From NCBI RefSeq assembly GCF_019599405.1, contig NZ_RKLQ01000001.1, forward strand, positions 1,178,001 through 1,242,000: 64,000 nucleotides of DNA, in the 5' to 3' direction. Positions 23,951-31,502 of the stretch are shown piece by piece. Within the stretch, counting starts at the first letter, position 1. Every line of letters starts with the position of its first letter. The position numbers and the translations under genes were made by a program. The notes beneath the pieces are model-generated. The model was not told the origin of the DNA and searched no databases. It was given only the letters and a program-made list of their open reading frames with translations. The stretch is from Haloarcula salinisoli (GTDB lineage Archaea; Halobacteriota; Halobacteria; Halobacteriales; Haloarculaceae).

Positions 23951-24254
23951 GTATCGGTTATCGTCTGCTTTGCGAAGCAGCCGGCTACGGCTCGGTCACG
24001 AAAAGACCTCGCGGCTAATCGTCGGCCTCCGCGAAACGGATGCTTACGCTGCGGACACGCGAAGCGGTCCGCTTGCGCTCACGGCTACGCCGTTCGCGCA
24101 GTTCGAGGTCGCGTGGCGACCTCGCGGCTAATCATCCGCTTCTGCGAGGCACCTGACTAGCCTCGAACACGCAAAGCGGTTCTCGGTCCTACTCAGCTGC
24201 CTCTGCGAACCAGACGCTTACTGCTCGGCGATAAAACGCCTCGTAGCTAATCGT
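23951..24254. repeat. degenerate ~58-bp tandem array running into the leuD stop codon
   Basis: Related units start near 23956, 24013, 24126, 24186 and 24245, a spacing of 57-60 bases or twice that, with a weaker unit near 24070. The best-conserved core is GGCTAATCGTCNGCNTC; the last unit is the 3' end of leuD including its stop. Strong hairpins lie inside: CTGCTT-TGCG-AAGCAG (23965-23980) and CGAGGTCGC-GTG-GCGACCTCG (24104-24124). The array looks like old duplications of a gene end that have drifted. Confidence 0.75.
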
Positions 24255-24891
24255 CTGCTTCGACGTCCGACCGCGTCTGGTCCAGATACGGGAGGTTCGA
24301 GGCCGTCTCCTCGATGGCGTTCCGGTTGGCCTTCATCAGGGCCGTCGTGTCCCAGATGCCCTCGACGAGGGCCTTTCGCTGGGCGTCGTCGACGGAGACA
24401 CTGATTTCCTTGCCGCCAAAGCGGACCGTCTCGGCGGCGACGTCGACCTCGATATCGCCGTCGGGGTGGTCGTCGACCCACTGCTGGAGTTCGTTGATGG
24501 TCTCGTGGTCGGCCGTCAGCGTCGGAATGCCGAGCGCGAGGCAGTTGCCTGCGAAAATCTCGGCGAAGCCCTCGCCGATGATGGCGTCGATACCCCAGCG
24601 CATCAGCGCCTGCGGGGCGTGCTCGCGGGAGGAGCCACAGCCGAAGTTGTTGTTGACGACCATGACGTTGGCGTCCTGGAACCGCGCCTCGTTGAGGGGG
24701 TGGTCTTTCTCGTTGTCGTCGTCGTCGAAGCGCAGGTCGAAGAAGGCGAACTCGCCCAGCCCGTCGAAGGTGACGACCTTCATGAACCGCGCCGGGATTA
24801 TCTGGTCGGTGTCGATGTCGTTCCCGCGGATGGGGACACCGGTGCCCTCGACGTAGTCGACCTCCGGAATCTCTTCGGTCGCGTCAGTCAC
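24247..24891 (-). CDS. leuD: 3-isopropylmalate dehydratase small subunit LeuD
   Basis: A 214-residue Leu[38 protein letters not shown] (swivel-domain substrate loop) and the [11 protein letters not shown] strand. With LeuC it isomerises 2-isopropylmalate to 3-isopropylmalate. The start is the GTG at 24891 ([16 protein letters not shown]), overlapping the leuC stop by 4 bases (GTGA). A longer open frame to 25104 lies inside leuC and is not coding. The C-terminal end lies inside a degenerate repeat. Confidence 0.93.
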
Positions 24892-26309
24892 GCCAAGGTC
24901 ACCTCCTTGATGTCGCGCACGTCGGAGACTTTCCCGTTGATGGCGGCGGCGGCGACCATCCGCGGGTTCATCAGGACGGTGCGGCCGTCCTTGCTCCCCT
25001 GGCGACCGACGAAGTTCCGGTTCGAGGAGCTGGCACAGGCCTCGTCGCCTTCCAGTTGGTCCTCGTTCATCCCCAGACACATCGAACAGCCGGCATTGCG
25101 CCACTCGAAGCCGGCTTCCTCGAAGATGTCTTTGAGACCCTCTTCCTCGGCAGCGCGCTGGACGCGCTGGCTGCCGGGGACGACGAAGGCACGCACGGAA
25201 TCGTCGACCTGGCGGCCCTTCACGATGCGAGCGGCACGGCGCAGGTCGGGCAGGCGGGCGTTGGTACAGGAACCCAGGAAGGCGACGTCGATGTCGTACC
25301 CTTCCATGGACTGGCCGGGCTCGACGCGCATGTGCTTCTGTGCGCGCCGGGCCGTGTCCACCTTGTCGTCAGCCAGGTCCTCGGGTGCCGGAATCGGGTC
25401 GTCGATGCCGATACCCTGGCCGGGGGTGGTCCCCCAGGTGACGACCGGGTCCAGCTCGCTGGCGTCGATTTCGACGACGTCGTCGTACTCGGCGTCCGCG
25501 TCGCTGCGGATGGACTCCCAGTAGGGCTTGAGCTGCTCGAACTTCTCGGGGTGTTCCTGGAAGTAGTCCGTCTGTTCGAGCCACTCGTAGGTGGTCTCGT
25601 CGGGGTTGACATAGCCCGCGCGAGCGCCGCCCTCGATGGACATATTACAGATGGACATCCGCCCTTCCATGTCGAGGTTCTCGATGGTCTCGCCGGCGTA
25701 CTCGTAGACGTAGCCGACGCCGCCCTCGGTGCCCAGACGGCGGATAATCTCGAGGATGATGTCCTTCGCTTCGACGCCCTCGTCGAGTTCGCCGGTGACC
25801 TCGATTTTGCGGACCTTCTGTTTCTCCATCGCGATGGTCTGGGTGGCCAGCACGTCGCGAATCTGGCTGGTCCCGATACCGAACGCGAGCGCGCCGAAGG
25901 CGCCGTGGGTGGAAGTGTGGCTGTCGCCACAGACGATGGTCTTGCCGGGCTGGGTGATGCCCTGCTCCGGCCCGATGACGTGGACGATACCCTGGTCGCC
26001 CGTCGTGGGGTCGGAGAACTGGATGCCCGCGTCGCGGACGTTCTCTTCCAGTTCGGCCATCATCCGCTCGGCCGCGTCGTCGGAGTAGGGCCGGTCCTGG
26101 TTCGCCGTCGGGACGATGTGGTCGACCGTCGCGTGAGTCAGGTCAGGGCGGGCGACCTCCAGGCCGCGCTCCTGAAGCATCCCGAACGCCTGCGGACTGG
26201 TGACCTCGTGGATGAGGTGGAGCCCGACGAACAGCTGGTCCTGCCCGTTGGGCAGGGTCGTTACCTTGTGCTGGTCCCATACCTTGTCGTACAGCGTGTT
26301 TTCACTCAT
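24888..26309 (-). CDS. leuC: 3-isopropylmalate dehydratase large subunit LeuC
   Basis: A 473-residue aconitase-family subunit binding a [4Fe-4S] cluster. Cluster cysteines are in [17 protein letters not shown] and in [14 protein letters not shown]; the active-site loop [24 protein letters not shown] is also clear. It starts [16 protein letters not shown], overlapping the small upstream ORF by 4 bases (ATGA), and overlaps leuD by 4 bases. It is part of ilvB-ilvN-ilvC-orf-leuC-leuD. Confidence 0.96.
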
Positions 26310-26572
26310 ACGGTCTCATCACGTCCTTCAGTGCCACGCTCGTAGGCGCGGTCGACGCCGTCGGCCGCCGACTCGTGGTCGACGTCCGCCATCGTCTGGG
26401 TCGTCTCGTCGGCCTCTTTGCCTCCGTCGGAGCGCGGCTCCGACGAGGCTCGCCGTCCGTCGGACGGCTCACCCCCGTCGGCGGCCACTGCCGACCCGCG
26501 TGTGAAGGCACTGCCGAACGCGCTGTCCGTGTGTGGATGCGTGTGGTCCACGTCTTTCATCTGCTCTGTCAT
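26306..26572 (-). CDS. 88-residue hydrophilic protein between ilvC and leuC
   Basis: A very hydrophilic, probably disordered small protein: [20 protein letters not shown] at the start, a low-complexity Arg/Ser/Asp/Glu middle, and [20 protein letters not shown] near the end. The motif M(K/A)DVDH occurs twice (residues about 5-9 and 60-64), suggesting a tiny duplicated element, possibly metal-binding through its His and Asp. It follows ilvC by 1 base and overlaps leuC by 4, so it is translated with them. I do not recognise it. Confidence 0.65.
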
Positions 26573-26573
26573 G

Positions 26574-27599
26574 TTAATCGTCCGCTGGGGCTTCCGTCTC
26601 TTCCTGCTGTTCCCCCCAGGAGAACAGCTCGCGCAGGCCGGCGCCGACCTGTTCGATTTCGTGTTCCTGTTCGGCTTCCCGGTACTGCTTGTAGCTCGGT
26701 CGGCCGGCCTGGTTCTCGAGAATCCACTCGCGGGTGAACTCGCCGTTCTGAATCTCTTCGAGAATCTTCTCCATCCCCTCGCGGTTGATGACCTCCTCAC
26801 CGCGGGTGAGCCCGCCGTACTCGGCGGTGTCCGAGACCGAGTTCCACATCTCCATGTGGCCGCCCTCGTACATCAGGTCGACGATGAGCTTGAGCTCGTT
26901 CAGACACTCGAAGTATGCCATCTCCGGGGAGTAGCCCGCGTCGACGAGCGTCTCGAAGCCGACCTTCACCATCTCGGTGACGCCGCCACAGAGGACGGCC
27001 TGTTCGCCGAAGAGGTCCGTCTCGACCTCTTCCTTGAACGTCGTCTCGATGACGCCCGCTCGCGTGCAGCCGATGGCCTTCGCGTAGGAGAGCGCACCCT
27101 CCTTCGCGTCGCCGGTGGCGTCCTGGTAGACGGCGATGAGTCCGGGGGTCCCTTCGCCGCGGTCGTAGGTCCGCCGGACGAGGTGGCCGGGGGATTTGGG
27201 CGCGACCATGGTCACGTCGACGCCCTCCTGGGGCTCTATCTGGCCGTAGTGGATGTTCAGCCCGTGGGCGAACTGCAGCGTGTCGCCCGGTTCCAGGCCG
27301 TCCTGGATAGCCTCGTACACTGCCGGCTGGACGGTGTCGGGGACCAGCATGACGACGCGGTCGGCCTCGGCGGCCGCAACGTCGGGCGTCTTCACGGTGA
27401 GGCCCGAGGCCTTCGCGTCCTCGCGCGAGGACGACCCCTTGCGGAGGCCGACGACGACGTCGACACCGGAGTCGTGGAGGTTCAGCGCGTGGGCGTGGCC
27501 CTGCGAGCCGTATCCGAGTACGGCTACTGTCTCGTCAGTTACGTGCGATACGTCGGCGTCGTCGTCGTAGTAGACCTCTGTCGTGAGTTCGTCAGTCAT
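26574..27599 (-). CDS. ilvC: ketol-acid reductoisomerase IlvC
   Basis: A 341-residue class I KARI. The N-terminal Rossmann motif is [32 protein letters not shown], and the knotted C-terminal domain carries the Mg2+ ligands in [15 protein letters not shown]-like [18 protein letters not shown] and in [15 protein letters not shown]. It rearranges and reduces acetohydroxyacids in valine and isoleucine synthesis. Its ATG overlaps the end of ilvN by 8 bases. The C-terminus has a short acidic extension ([12 protein letters not shown]). Confidence 0.96.
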
Positions 27600-28191
27600 G
27601 TTTCTCCAGTGTCTTGGGGCCTCGTTCCAGCGCGGCGGCCCCCGTCCGCACGACCTCCTGCACGTCGAACTGTTTGAACGCCTCGACGGCAGCGTCGATT
27701 TTCTGCTTGCTGCCCGTGATCTCGACCGTCACCGAATCCGTGGACGCGTCGACGGCCTGCCCGTCGTACATCTCCGCCACGGCGTTGACGTCGTCCGGTT
27801 TCTCCCCACCGACCTTGATCAAGGCGAGCTCCCGGCGGACCGCTGTCGGGTCCAGTTCCGTCACCTCGATGACGGGGACCAGTTTGCGGAGCTGCTTTTT
27901 GGCCTGGTCGATGCCGGGCTCGGGCTCCTCGATGAGGATGGTCATCCGGGCCGTATCGTCATCGACCGTCGGGCCGACGGTGAGACTTTCGATGTTGAAC
28001 TGCCGGCGCGAGAAGAGCGCCGAGACCTCCGATAGCACGCCGGGCTTGTGTTTGACCAGCGCCGACAGGACCGCCTGTCGGGGTTCGTGGGTCACTTCCG
28101 CCTCGGGGTCGATTCGGATTCCTTGCTTGTTCCGTCGACCCTTCGGGTGCATCCGGTCGTGTGGCGAGGGGCCGGGCATTCCACCAGTCAT
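27592..28191 (-). CDS. ilvN: acetolactate synthase small (regulatory) subunit IlvN
   Basis: A 199-residue regulatory subunit with an ACT domain at residues about 38-110 ([34 protein letters not shown]), which normally binds valine for feedback control, and the C-terminal dimerisation domain ([22 protein letters not shown]). The N-terminal 35 residues ([21 protein letters not shown]) are a basic extension seen in Haloarchaea. Its start overlaps the ilvB stop by one base. Confidence 0.94.
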
Positions 28192-29957
28192 TAGAGTTCC
28201 TCCAGGTGGTCTTCCTGCAGCGCGAACCGCCCGTTGTCACCGCCGCTTGGCACCATCGGGAAGACGTTCTCCCCGGGGTCGATGTGGGCGTCGATGACGC
28301 TCGGGCCGTCGTACTCGCGTGCCGCTTCGATGGTCTCTTCGACGTCTTCCTGTGCCTCCAGTCGGAACCCGCGAGCGCCGAAGGCCTCGGCGAGCTTGTC
28401 GAACTGCGGAATCCACGGGTACTCCGAGGCCATCCGGCGGCCCTCGTAGAAGCCGTCCTGCCACTGGCGGACCATCCCGACCGCCTCGTTGTTCAGGACG
28501 ACGTAGGTGATGTCCAGCTGTTCGCGAACGGCGACCGACAGGCCCTGGACCGTCATCAGGAACGAGCCGTCGCCGTCGAAACAGACGACCTCCTGGTCCG
28601 GGGCGGCCAGCTTCGCGCCGATGGCCGCGGGGACGCCGTAGCCCATCGTCCCCAGGCCGTGTGAGGAGACCCAGGTGCGGGGCTCGGTGTACTCCCAGAA
28701 CTGGGAGGCCCACATCTGGTGTTGCCCGACGCCGGTACAGACGATGGTGTCATCGGGCGTCATATCGGAGAACTTTTCGACGACGTACTGCGGTTTCAGC
28801 GGCTCGTCGTCGGGCGTGTCGTAGGTCATCGGGTACTCGTCTTTCCAGGTCTGGCACTGTTCGCGCCACTCGTCCACGTCGGGGACCCGTGGCATGGCGT
28901 CGAAGAGCTGGCGCAGGACTTTCCGGGCGTCACCGATGAGCGGGTAGTCCGCGTAGATGTTCTTGGAAATCTCGGCGGGGTCGATGTCGACGTGGATGAC
29001 CTCGGCGTCGGGAGCGAAGGAATCGACGCCGCCGGTCAGGCGGTCGTCAAAGCGCGTGCCGATGGCCAGCAGGCAGTCCGTGTTCGAGATGGCCATGTTG
29101 GCGTAGCCGGTCCCGTGCATCCCGGCCCACTCCAGGGAGAGTTCGTGGTCCTCCGGGAACGACCCGATGCCGGGCATCGTCGTGATGACCGGAATCTCGT
29201 ACTCCATGGCGAACTCACGGAGCGCCGAGGAGGCGTCGGCCTTGATGACGCCGCCACCGGAGAGGATGACCGGCCGGTCCGCGGCCGCCAGTGCTTCGGC
29301 TGCTTCCTGCACGGCCGCGTCGTCGGCCTCTTCCTGGACCTCGTAGGTGTCCGGGGTCGTCGGCTCGCTGGGTTCGACGTCGGTCTCGCCCTGCGTGATA
29401 TCCTTGGGCAGGTCGACCAGCGTCGGGCCCTGTCGCCCGGCGTCGGCCAGCGCGAAGGCCTCGCCGACGTTGTCGCCGACTGTGTCCGAATCGGCCGCGA
29501 AGTAGGACTCCTTGGTGACCGGCTGGGTGATACCCACCGTGTCGGTCTCCTGGAAGGCGTCGTTGCCGACGAACTCCGTGGGGACCTGGCCGGTCAGAGC
29601 GATCATCGGGTCCGAGTCCATGTTGGCGTCGGCGATACCGGTGACGAGGTTCGTCGCGCCGGGGCCGGATGTCGCGAAACAGACTCCGGGTTTGCCGGTG
29701 ACGATGCCGTAGGCGTCCGCGGCGTGGGACGCCCCCTGCTCGTGGGCCATCGTCACGTGGTTGAGGTCGGAGTCGTACAGCGCGTCGTAGACGGGCATGA
29801 TGGCCCCGCCCTGGACGCCGAAGATGTACTCCGCACCGGCGTTCTCCAGGGCCCGGACGACGGACTGGGCGCCGGTAGTGACGGGCGCCTGCTCGCTCTC
29901 GTCGCTCTCCTCCTCGCTCGCCTCCTCGTCGGCCGGGACTTTGGCGTGTTCGCTCAT
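28191..29957 (-). CDS. ilvB: acetolactate synthase large (catalytic) subunit IlvB
   Basis: A 588-residue ThDP enzyme making acetolactate and acetohydroxybutyrate. The catalytic Glu lies in MAHEQGASHAADAYG, the FAD-site region is YANMAISNTDCLLAIGTRFDDR, and the ThDP/Mg motif is CFDGDGSFLMTVQGLSVAVREQLDITYVVLNN. A Glu/Ser-rich extension precedes residue 27. The ATG at 29957 is preceded by GGAGG six bases upstream, an unusually clear Shine-Dalgarno sequence for a haloarchaeon, and it overlaps a 19-codon upstream ORF (ATGA). Confidence 0.96.
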   Translation of the reverse strand: MSEHAKVPADEEASEEESDESEQAPVTTGAQSVVRALENAGAEYIFGVQGGAIMPVYDALYDSDLNHVTMAHEQGASHAADAYGIVTGKPGVCFATSGPGATNLVTGIADANMDSDPMIALTGQVPTEFVGNDAFQETDTVGITQPVTKESYFAADSDTVGDNVGEAFALADAGRQGPTLVDLPKDITQGETDVEPSEPTTPDTYEVQEEADDAAVQEAAEALAAADRPVILSGGGVIKADASSALREFAMEYEIPVITTMPGIGSFPEDHELSLEWAGMHGTGYANMAISNTDCLLAIGTRFDDRLTGGVDSFAPDAEVIHVDIDPAEISKNIYADYPLIGDARKVLRQLFDAMPRVPDVDEWREQCQTWKDEYPMTYDTPDDEPLKPQYVVEKFSDMTPDDTIVCTGVGQHQMWASQFWEYTEPRTWVSSHGLGTMGYGVPAAIGAKLAAPDQEVVCFDGDGSFLMTVQGLSVAVREQLDITYVVLNNEAVGMVRQWQDGFYEGRRMASEYPWIPQFDKLAEAFGARGFRLEAQEDVEETIEAAREYDGPSVIDAHIDPGENVFPMVPSGGDNGRFALQEDHLEEL

Positions 29958-30013
29958 AATCGTCCTCCGGTGGTGTGCTGTCGATACGGTCGTCGTGTGG
30001 TTGCTGTGTGCAT
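29954..30013 (-). CDS. 19-codon upstream ORF coupled to ilvB
   Basis: ATG at 30013 to TGA at 29954, product MHTATTRRPYRQHTTGGRL, basic and Thr-rich. Its stop overlaps the ilvB start (TTATGA), and the ilvB Shine-Dalgarno GGAGG is inside it. The product contains no unusual run of branched-chain residues. It may couple translation of ilvB to ribosomes arriving from upstream, or it may be chance. Confidence 0.4.
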   Translation of the reverse strand: MHTATTRRPYRQHTTGGRL

Positions 30014-30066
30014 AGCTGGGGTCTCTGGTGGGTGGTGGATGGTCGATACGGACTGGGCCGGGAGTG

Positions 30067-30099
30067 GGTAGTACGGGGCTAGAAGGCCCCTACAATACC
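30067..30099 (-). promoter_or_regulatory. hairpin overlapping the end of the ilvB leader peptide ORF
   Basis: On the minus-strand transcript GGUA-UU-GUA-GGGGC pairs with GCCCC-G-UAC-UACC around a six-base loop CUUCUA, 12 base pairs with a two-base and a one-base bulge. The 5' arm is codons 23-27 of the leader ORF and the UAG stop sits at the loop/3' arm. A ribosome reaching the stop would open it; one stalled at the Leu codons would not. Confidence 0.6.
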
Positions 30100-30165
30100 T
30101 ACGCCGTGAAGAAGAAGCGCACCACTGGCAGTCGGGCGACCCGAAGCACCAGCGTGCGCTGTCAT
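30079..30165 (-). CDS. putative branched-chain amino acid leader peptide of the ilvB operon
   Basis: A 28-codon ORF starting ATG at 30165, only about 4 bases after the transcription start predicted from the TATA box, so probably leaderless. The product begins MTAHAGASGRPTASG and ends ALLLHGVGIVGAF. Three consecutive Leu codons (CTT, CTT, CTT; 30117-30109), then Val GTA, Ile ATT and Val GTA follow. These A/T-ending codons are rare in the neighbouring genes, which prefer CTC/CTG, GTC and ATC. The stop lies in a stable hairpin. The pattern is that of attenuation leader peptides of bacterial ilv/leu operons. Confidence 0.65.
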   Translation of the reverse strand: MTAHAGASGRPTASGALLLHGVGIVGAF

Positions 30166-30190
30166 CGTATCGTGAGACTGTCGGCGATGG

Positions 30191-30200
30191 GTAATAAACG
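30191..30200 (-). promoter_or_regulatory. TATA box of the ilvB operon
   Basis: CGTTTATTAC on the minus strand is centred about 26-27 bases before the predicted start near 30169 and 31 bases before the leader-peptide ATG. It implies a 5' leader of about 210 bases before ilvB, long for a haloarchaeal mRNA. Confidence 0.6.
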
Positions 30201-30290: not shown

Positions 30291-31502
30291 CTACGCCCGG
30301 ACCTCCTCGCTCTCCTCGTCGACGCCGACCTCCTGGGCGAACCGTTCGAGTTCGCTCATGGTGACCTGCTGTTTCTCCGCGCCGAACTCCTTGACGCGGC
30401 GGGTCACCTCGCGGACTTCGGCGTCCGTCGGGGCGTAGCCCGCATCGACCAGCCGCTCGCGCACCGAGTGAGCGCCGGTGTGTTTGCCCAGCACGAGCTC
30501 GCGCTCGGCACCGACCATCTCGGGGGTCATGACTCCGGGCTCGAACGTGTCGGAGTTCTCGATGACGCCCGCGGCGTGGATACCGCTCTCGTGGGAGAAG
30601 GCGTTGCGCCCGACGATGGGCTTGTTCGCCGGCACCGGAATGTCCGACTTCTCCTCGATTAAACGGGACAGCTCCGTGATACGGGTCGTATCGATGCCCG
30701 TGTTCACGTCGTAGAGCGATTCCAGCGCCATCACGACCTCTTCGTAGGCCGCGTTGCCAGCTCGCTCGCCGATGCCGTTGACCGACACCTGCGACTGGCT
30801 CGCGCCCGCCTCGAACCCGGAGATGGCGTTCGCAGAGGCGAAGCCGAAGTCGTCGTGGGTGTGGACGTCGATACGCGCGTCCGTGTGCGCGTCGACGATC
30901 TCGATGAGGTCGTAGAACCGTCGCGGCGTCGCGACCCCACAGGTGTCGGGGATGTTTATCCAGTCGGCTCCCGCGTCTGACGTCGCTTCGATGACTTCGA
31001 TGAGGAAGTCCTCGGAGGTTCGGGTGGCGTCCATCGGCGAGAACATGCACTCGGCACCCGCCTCGACGATGCGCTCGACGGACTCGACGGCCGAGTCCAG
31101 CGCCTCCTGACGGGTCGCGTGCATGGAGTCTTGTAACTGTACGTCGGACGTCGAGACGAAGGTGTGGACCATGTCCACACCCGAATCCAGAGCTGCCTCG
31201 ATGTCCTTCTCGACCACACGCGCCAGCCCGCAGGTCGTTACGTGGGTGGACTCGGCGATGTCGCGGACGGCCTCGAACTCCGCGTCGGAGTTGACGGGGA
31301 ACCCGGCCTCGATGACGTGGGTACCCATCTCGTCGAGTATCGCCGCTATCTCGCGTTTGTCCTCGTAGTTGAACGACGTGCGTGGCGACTGCTCACCGTC
31401 GCGCAGTGTGGTGTCGAATATGCGTGCGTCTGTTATCTCAGACGTGGAATCCAGTGTGCCCTGGAAGAACTCGATCCGCCGGGGATCCCGACGTGCCCTC
31501 AT
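30291..31502 (-). CDS. leuA: 2-isopropylmalate synthase / citramalate synthase-family enzyme LeuA
   Basis: A 403-residue DRE-TIM metallolyase. ARIFDTTLRDGEQSPRTSF carries the catalytic Arg-Asp, HTHDDFGFASANAISGFEAGASQSQVSVNGIGERAGNAA-type sequence carries the metal His pair, and GRNAFSHESGIHAAG follows. The C-terminal LeuA allosteric domain (about 130 residues) is missing, so this is a short form and may make citramalate, or be insensitive to leucine. The start at 31502 gives MRARRDPRRIEFFQG. A GTG at 31532 lies upstream of the predicted transcription start. It is a separate transcript from ilvB. Confidence 0.85.
   Translation of the reverse strand: MRARRDPRRIEFFQGTLDSTSEITDARIFDTTLRDGEQSPRTSFNYEDKREIAAILDEMGTHVIEAGFPVNSDAEFEAVRDIAESTHVTTCGLARVVEKDIEAALDSGVDMVHTFVSTSDVQLQDSMHATRQEALDSAVESVERIVEAGAECMFSPMDATRTSEDFLIEVIEATSDAGADWINIPDTCGVATPRRFYDLIEIVDAHTDARIDVHTHDDFGFASANAISGFEAGASQSQVSVNGIGERAGNAAYEEVVMALESLYDVNTGIDTTRITELSRLIEEKSDIPVPANKPIVGRNAFSHESGIHAAGVIENSDTFEPGVMTPEMVGAERELVLGKHTGAHSVRERLVDAGYAPTDAEVREVTRRVKEFGAEKQQVTMSELERFAQEVGVDEESEEVRA

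Follow-up and report, generated by a model that had tools for sequence, protein, structure and literature searches.

A conserved small gene that places Ile and Val codons at a hairpin upstream of ilvB suggests that leader-peptide control also works in Archaea

Organization of the ilvB leader

The window analyzed here is a stretch of 64,000 nucleotides from Haloarcula salinisoli (contig NZ_RKLQ01000001.1, positions 1,178,001–1,242,000), and all of the features described for it lie on the minus strand. The leader region is located between leuA, which ends at 30291, and ilvB, which starts at 29957. The operon that follows encodes the large and small subunits of acetolactate synthase (ilvB, 28191–29957, NCBIfam TIGR00118, 712.9 bits; ilvN, 27592–28191, TIGR00119), ketol-acid reductoisomerase (ilvC, 26574–27599, TIGR00465) and the large and small subunits of 3-isopropylmalate dehydratase (leuC, 24888–26309, TIGR00170; leuD, 24247–24900, TIGR00171). 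The interval between ilvC and leuC (26309–26578) contains a frame of ~90 codons that is rich in His, Asp and Glu and has no NCBIfam match. On the other side of the leader, a short ORF (MSNNEGTSGSPADRVLPGHTGFHV and a stop codon, at about 31511–31440) overlaps the start of leuA and is located 3′ of a TATA-like element at about 31546.

The leader begins with a TATA-box-like element, TTTATTA (30192–30198), which would serve as its promoter and for which the predicted transcription start is at about 30165–30169. An ATG (30165–30163) is found 27 nt downstream of this element and opens a leaderless-type upstream ORF of 28 codons (uORF1, 30079–30165; MTAHAGASGRPTASGALLLHGVGIVGAF followed by TAG at 30081–30079). 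The putative sensor codons ATT-GTA (Ile-Val, 30091–30096) are directly 5′ of the stem of a GGGGC-loop-GCCCC hairpin (30075–30090), and the uORF1 stop codon is in its loop. The core arms of the hairpin (30090–30086 and 30079–30075) are extended to 12 base pairs by GTA/TAC and GGTA/TACC pairings that include bulges. The initial annotation of this region had described the TATA box, the 28-codon ORF with its three CTT, two GTA and one ATT codons, and a 12-pair hairpin holding the stop codon in its loop, and direct inspection of the sequence agrees with each of these points. A spacer follows (30014–30074), nearly free of G in its first 15 nt and containing the motif CGYAYCG at 30050–30044. The spacer leads to a second upstream ORF that the initial annotation did not include: uORF2 (29954–30013; 19 codons, MHTATTRRPYRQHTTGGRL and a stop) ends in an ATGA overlap with the ilvB start and carries a Shine-Dalgarno sequence, GGAGG, inside its 3′ end.

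Conservation of uORF1 among haloarchaea

We collected ilvB upstream regions from about 120 haloarchaeal genomes. Of the 119 regions examined, 117 share the same design, representing 53 genera of haloarchaea, and the two regions that lack the element belong to members of two deep families. The exact pattern ATTGTAGGGGCN{2,7}GCCCC is present in 159 of 293 Halobacteriales genomes, at practically one copy per genome, whereas the reversed control pattern yields a single match in total across the 293 genomes. Among 231 sampled genomes from the same phylum but outside the order, the exact pattern occurs in two. Matches listed from beyond the haloarchaea include scattered unrelated bacteria, at a level expected by chance for 257 billion bases. 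Genomes without the exact string retain the same hairpin with altered pairs (GTACGGGCC..GGCCCG, GTAGGGCC..GGCCCTAC or GGGCCG..CGGCCC) or encode IVGV with GGGGT. Judged by these sequence comparisons, the leader element at ilvB is more than a product of chance. We also note a second, paralogous ilvB in one genome with a leader of its own, in which Phe-Val (TTC GTA) replaces Ile-Val; its hairpin is the same, again with a stop codon in the loop.

The anatomy of uORF1 is preserved in several respects. An AT-rich 8-mer precedes the uORF1 ATG at a nearly constant distance, with position −33 in 80 of 117 loci and positions within −30 to −36 in 116 of 117. An in-frame ATG combined with a TATA element at leaderless distance is found in 112 of the 117 loci, compared with 0 and 2 for the other two reading frames. 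Lengths range from 19 to 42 codons, mostly 25–29, and differ by whole codons. The stop codon may be TAG, TAA or TGA; its first nucleotide is in the loop in 109 of 117 cases and, in the remaining 8, at most 6 nt 3′ of the hairpin.

Conservation is strongest at the end of the frame. All 117 loci have GTA as the codon preceding the stem, even where no TAC is available for pairing, and the codon before it encodes Ile in 113 (ATT in 91, ATC in 22). Counting one genome per genus, Leu, Ile or Val is encoded at 119 of 265 positions (45%) between codons −6 and −2, as opposed to 104 of 898 (12%) elsewhere in uORF1 (Fisher p = 1e-29), and this enrichment is confined to the last codons before the Ile-Val pair. 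Near the hairpin, T accounts for 48% of second codon positions versus 11% of first positions, as expected of a coding signal. The initial annotation had also regarded the CTT, ATT and GTA codons as rare, and the ilvB genes of relatives bear this out: of 40 Ile codons close to the hairpin, 28 are ATT, versus 7% in those genes; of 44 Leu codons, 10 are CTT, versus 3%; and GTA makes up <1% of the Val codons of those genes.

The remainder of the peptide is less constrained. The run of three Leu codons, read in the initial annotation as part of the sensor, is replaced in relatives by TAILGVR, SALAPIR, AVATLI and similar sequences. An alignment across relatives, which that annotation had suggested as a check, thus retains the hairpin and the Ile-Val pair and loses the Leu run. 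We have rejected Leu sensing through this run as a general principle because it is not conserved; by comparison among genera, the conserved sensor is Ile-Val(GTA), and the Leu run is lineage-specific. Within-genus comparison of the amino-terminal part of uORF1 reveals no third-position excess of change, and the codon-level case for translation is therefore based on the frame, the stop codon and the placement of Leu, Ile and Val. A role for uORF1 as a small functional protein was rejected because the amino-terminal part varies freely and has no such excess. The stem codons are invariant as nucleotides (GTA GGG), a fixity that an RNA signal would fit as well and that counts against the leader-peptide reading.

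The hairpin, the coupling uORF and a second leader at pheS

The four outer pairs of the stem are formed in 105 of 105 distinct hairpins, with loops of 3–7 nt, and full-leader folds give a median hairpin pair probability of 0.99. Three lineages have one pair inverted on both sides; since most pairs are invariant, this covariation is real but thin. Variable loop length together with inverted pairs argues for an RNA structure over a DNA site. Consensus folding (RNAalifold, using 28 leaders from the genus and 24 from a second family) did not reveal a conserved structure in which the hairpin arms pair otherwise, and no candidate antiterminator besides the hairpin emerged from these alignments. Consensus folding likewise gave no conserved pairing of the hairpin with the start of uORF2 or of ilvB. 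Sequestration of the ilvB start by the spacer, which appears in the fold of the window sequence, was discarded because it is absent from the consensus of the genus alignment.

A terminator scan of the leader returned zero U-tract terminators; the sequence following the hairpin is a G-poor C/T tract, and an intrinsic terminator with a T tail was rejected on this basis. The attenuator-like reading of the initial annotation is not supported in these details, neither a U-tract terminator nor an alternative antiterminator of the bacterial type having been found. The Rfam models for ilvB, leu, his and trp leaders and for the T-box do not match the leader at E-values up to 5, and the one Rfam match in that range is a chance match to an lncRNA. 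Across genera, the first 15 nt of the spacer contain 3–7% G compared with 34% upstream. At ~27 nt beyond the hairpin, 41 of 53 genera carry the motif CGYAYCG, where shuffling predicts 4. Separately, GYAYCG recurs inside uORF2 in 22 of 50 genera versus 7 by codon shuffling.

uORF2 is present in 111 of 117 loci and overlaps ilvB through ATGA in 99 of these 111. Its codons largely avoid the products of the pathway: Leu, Ile and Val constitute 19 of 1012 residues (1.9%), compared with 9.3% when uORF2 is read in its alternative frames and 17.8% for ilvB. The uORF2–ilvB pair has the stop/start overlap (ATGA) that characterizes genes coupled by termination-reinitiation. For other ATGA gene pairs, coupled translation has been demonstrated experimentally in Haloferax volcanii, where Shine-Dalgarno motifs function in reinitiation and not in 5′ leaders (PMC6728339). 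A promoter belonging to ilvB itself was considered and rejected, since a full AT 6-mer precedes ilvB in 0 of 53 genera versus 32 of 53 for uORF1. Because uORF2 is nearly free of Leu, Ile and Val and overlaps the ilvB start, its sequence suggests that translation of ilvB is probably coupled to that of an ORF requiring no branched-chain amino acid.

Conserved leaders are not found everywhere by this type of search, as shown by the negative controls hisG, trpC and trpS, none of which is preceded by one. A second leader was found at pheS (Phe-tRNA ligase), where a conserved leaderless-type uORF of about 26 codons lies upstream in 24 of 30 loci scanned. The encoded peptide mostly ends with GFGFFFA and one more residue (MASESHAASVAVQPAVRPGFGFFFAV and a stop in the genome from which the window was taken), the Phe codons swap between species (TTC 75, TTT 16) and pheS mostly starts 100–180 nt past the uORF stop codon. 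In H. volcanii, pheS is preceded by a 26-residue uORF whose transcription start has been mapped (PMC4983044, Table 2), and on the strength of its length and location we take it to be the same leader.

A model for the ilvB leader and its relation to known systems

The arrangement described above suggests the following sequence of events. Transcription would start on the uORF1 ATG or no more than a few bases from it, as indicated by the spacing of the TATA-like element, so that a ribosome would load on a leaderless message. uORF1 would then act as a gauge, the elements of which, identified by comparison, are the Leu/Ile/Val-rich last codons and the fixed Ile-Val(GTA) pair before a G+C hairpin. 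When charged Ile and Val tRNAs are plentiful, the ribosome would pass, terminate in the loop and leave, allowing the hairpin to close, and expression of ilvB and the genes that follow would be kept low. Under a shortage of Ile or Val, the ribosome would wait on the Ile-Val codons and cover the 5′ arm, no hairpin would form and the operon would be expressed. With a bacterial-type footprint, which is assumed here and may not be that of haloarchaea, a ribosome having its A site at codons 22–25 (GTA, GGT, ATT and GTA) covers the 5′ arm, and the hairpin would accordingly stay open whenever Ile or Val runs short. With the same footprint, a ribosome at the three CTT codons does not reach the hairpin, which argues against the Leu run as a sensor. 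The leader-peptide interpretation of the initial annotation is thus retained for the leaderless-type ORF and its branched-chain codons before a conserved hairpin, which extend throughout the order, and abandoned for the lineage-specific Leu run. Finally, uORF2, whose anatomy is evident in the alignments, would bring ribosomes to ilvB by stop-start coupling even during starvation.

The output is the least certain step of the model. RNA polymerase may undergo early 3′-end formation in the G-free stretch of pyrimidines that follows the hairpin, perhaps with the aid of aCPSF1/FttA, a Rho analogue without homology to Rho whose terminating activity is proposed to be excluded by a coupled ribosome (PMC11616081). 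In H. volcanii, 59% termination was obtained with nothing more than an RNA hairpin; the same study describes T stretches as the prevailing type of haloarchaeal terminator, which counts against the model (PMC7237163). We assign a probability of about 0.6 to leader-peptide control of this kind, in which Ile/Val shortage opens the hairpin and the output is more likely early 3′-end formation. Output aside, we regard a leader-peptide sensor as such as highly probable.

As the main alternative, the same sensor could have a translational output, with the hairpin and ribosome position setting translation of uORF2, and thereby of ilvB, while transcription is not stopped. Conservation of uORF2 and its ATGA overlap nearly as well as the hairpin fits this arrangement, as do the absence of a U-tract terminator from the terminator scan and the established termination-reinitiation of H. 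volcanii with its active Shine-Dalgarno motifs (PMC6728339). The distances involved are less favorable, however: the hairpin is about 60–70 nt 5′ of the uORF2 start and 117 nt 5′ of ilvB, and no conserved pairing of either start with it was found. In addition, reinitiation is reported to require an overlap or very short distances (PMC10666635), which argues against transfer of ribosomes from uORF1 to uORF2. We consider a purely translational output unlikely, and in our judgement termination is somewhat ahead of translation.

Two further explanations were considered. Nascent-peptide arrest, in which the IVGA end would stall the terminating ribosome at the loop stop codon in response to free branched-chain amino acids, much as TnaC responds to tryptophan, would account for the IVGA or IVGV peptide end with a stop within 0–2 codons in nearly all loci. 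It is nevertheless improbable, given that (i) the nucleotides are fixed (GTA and GGG only) and not the residues alone, (ii) eight of 117 uORF1s continue some codons past the hairpin loop and (iii) the remaining peptide is free to vary and arrest does not need the upstream Leu/Ile/Val enrichment. Recognition of GTAGGGGC-loop-GCCCC by an RNA- or DNA-binding protein, with the ORF incidental, would explain the very high conservation of the GTAGGGGC nucleotides and the additional CGYAYCG element in the spacer and is nonetheless very improbable, as the frame is kept, three types of stop codon are placed in the loop, length changes by whole codons and Leu/Ile/Val enrichment is restricted to the ORF end.

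Leader-peptide control by tRNA charging remains our preferred reading, and with the pheS leader in mind we lean toward the broader proposal that haloarchaea have a class of ribosome-sensing leader uORFs (ending in IVGA at ilvB and GFGFFFA at pheS) that control amino-acid and aminoacyl-tRNA synthetase genes. Such a class, combining leaderless translation, a stop-in-loop hairpin and, at ilvB, a starvation-proof coupling uORF, would be the first described in Archaea. The literature searched, beyond the reach of which lie many subscription papers, describes no amino-acid leader peptide from an archaeon. A survey of long 5′ leaders in H. volcanii lists 16 uORFs with mapped starts and assigns them no regulatory role; its table is restricted to 5′ leaders of 150–250 nt, and ilvB is missing from it (PMC4983044, Table 2).

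The closest parallels are bacterial. E. coli pheST has the leader pheM, which encodes a Phe-rich peptide before pheS. The haloarchaeal GFGFFFA uORF is also Phe-rich and precedes pheS, and we claim no sequence relation between the two. TnaC-type arrest peptides operate with Rho, and there is a likeness in that a ribosome stalled near the uORF1 stop codon could shield the G-poor, C/T-rich tract from a termination factor; the conserved unit in haloarchaea is, however, codons plus a hairpin rather than a long peptide.

Attenuation by leader peptides, a textbook mechanism of bacteria, depends on ribosomes that closely follow RNA polymerase. If the model is correct, such control requires neither Rho nor U-tract terminators and can operate on leaderless messages, and the leader offers a natural, genetically tractable test of archaeal ribosome–RNA polymerase coupling in Haloferax or Haloarcula. 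As in an attenuator, a leader ORF with codons for the operon end products lies between promoter and operon. In its design the leader resembles a bacterial attenuator, but it is not classified as one, since the terminator scan found no U-tract. With the bacterial ilv/leu attenuators (ilvGMEDA, and Corynebacterium ilvBNC with its ilvB-II motif; PMC10272879) it shares a short ORF with rare branched-chain codons before an ilv operon and a hairpin that follows or overlaps the end of that ORF. It differs from them in its archaeal host, in a leaderless ORF and in a single short hairpin whose loop encloses the stop codon, with neither a U-tract terminator nor an alternative antiterminator found. The haloarchaeal leader also has a fixed Ile-Val pair in place of long codon runs and an additional uORF, nearly free of Leu, Ile and Val, that is probably coupled to ilvB.
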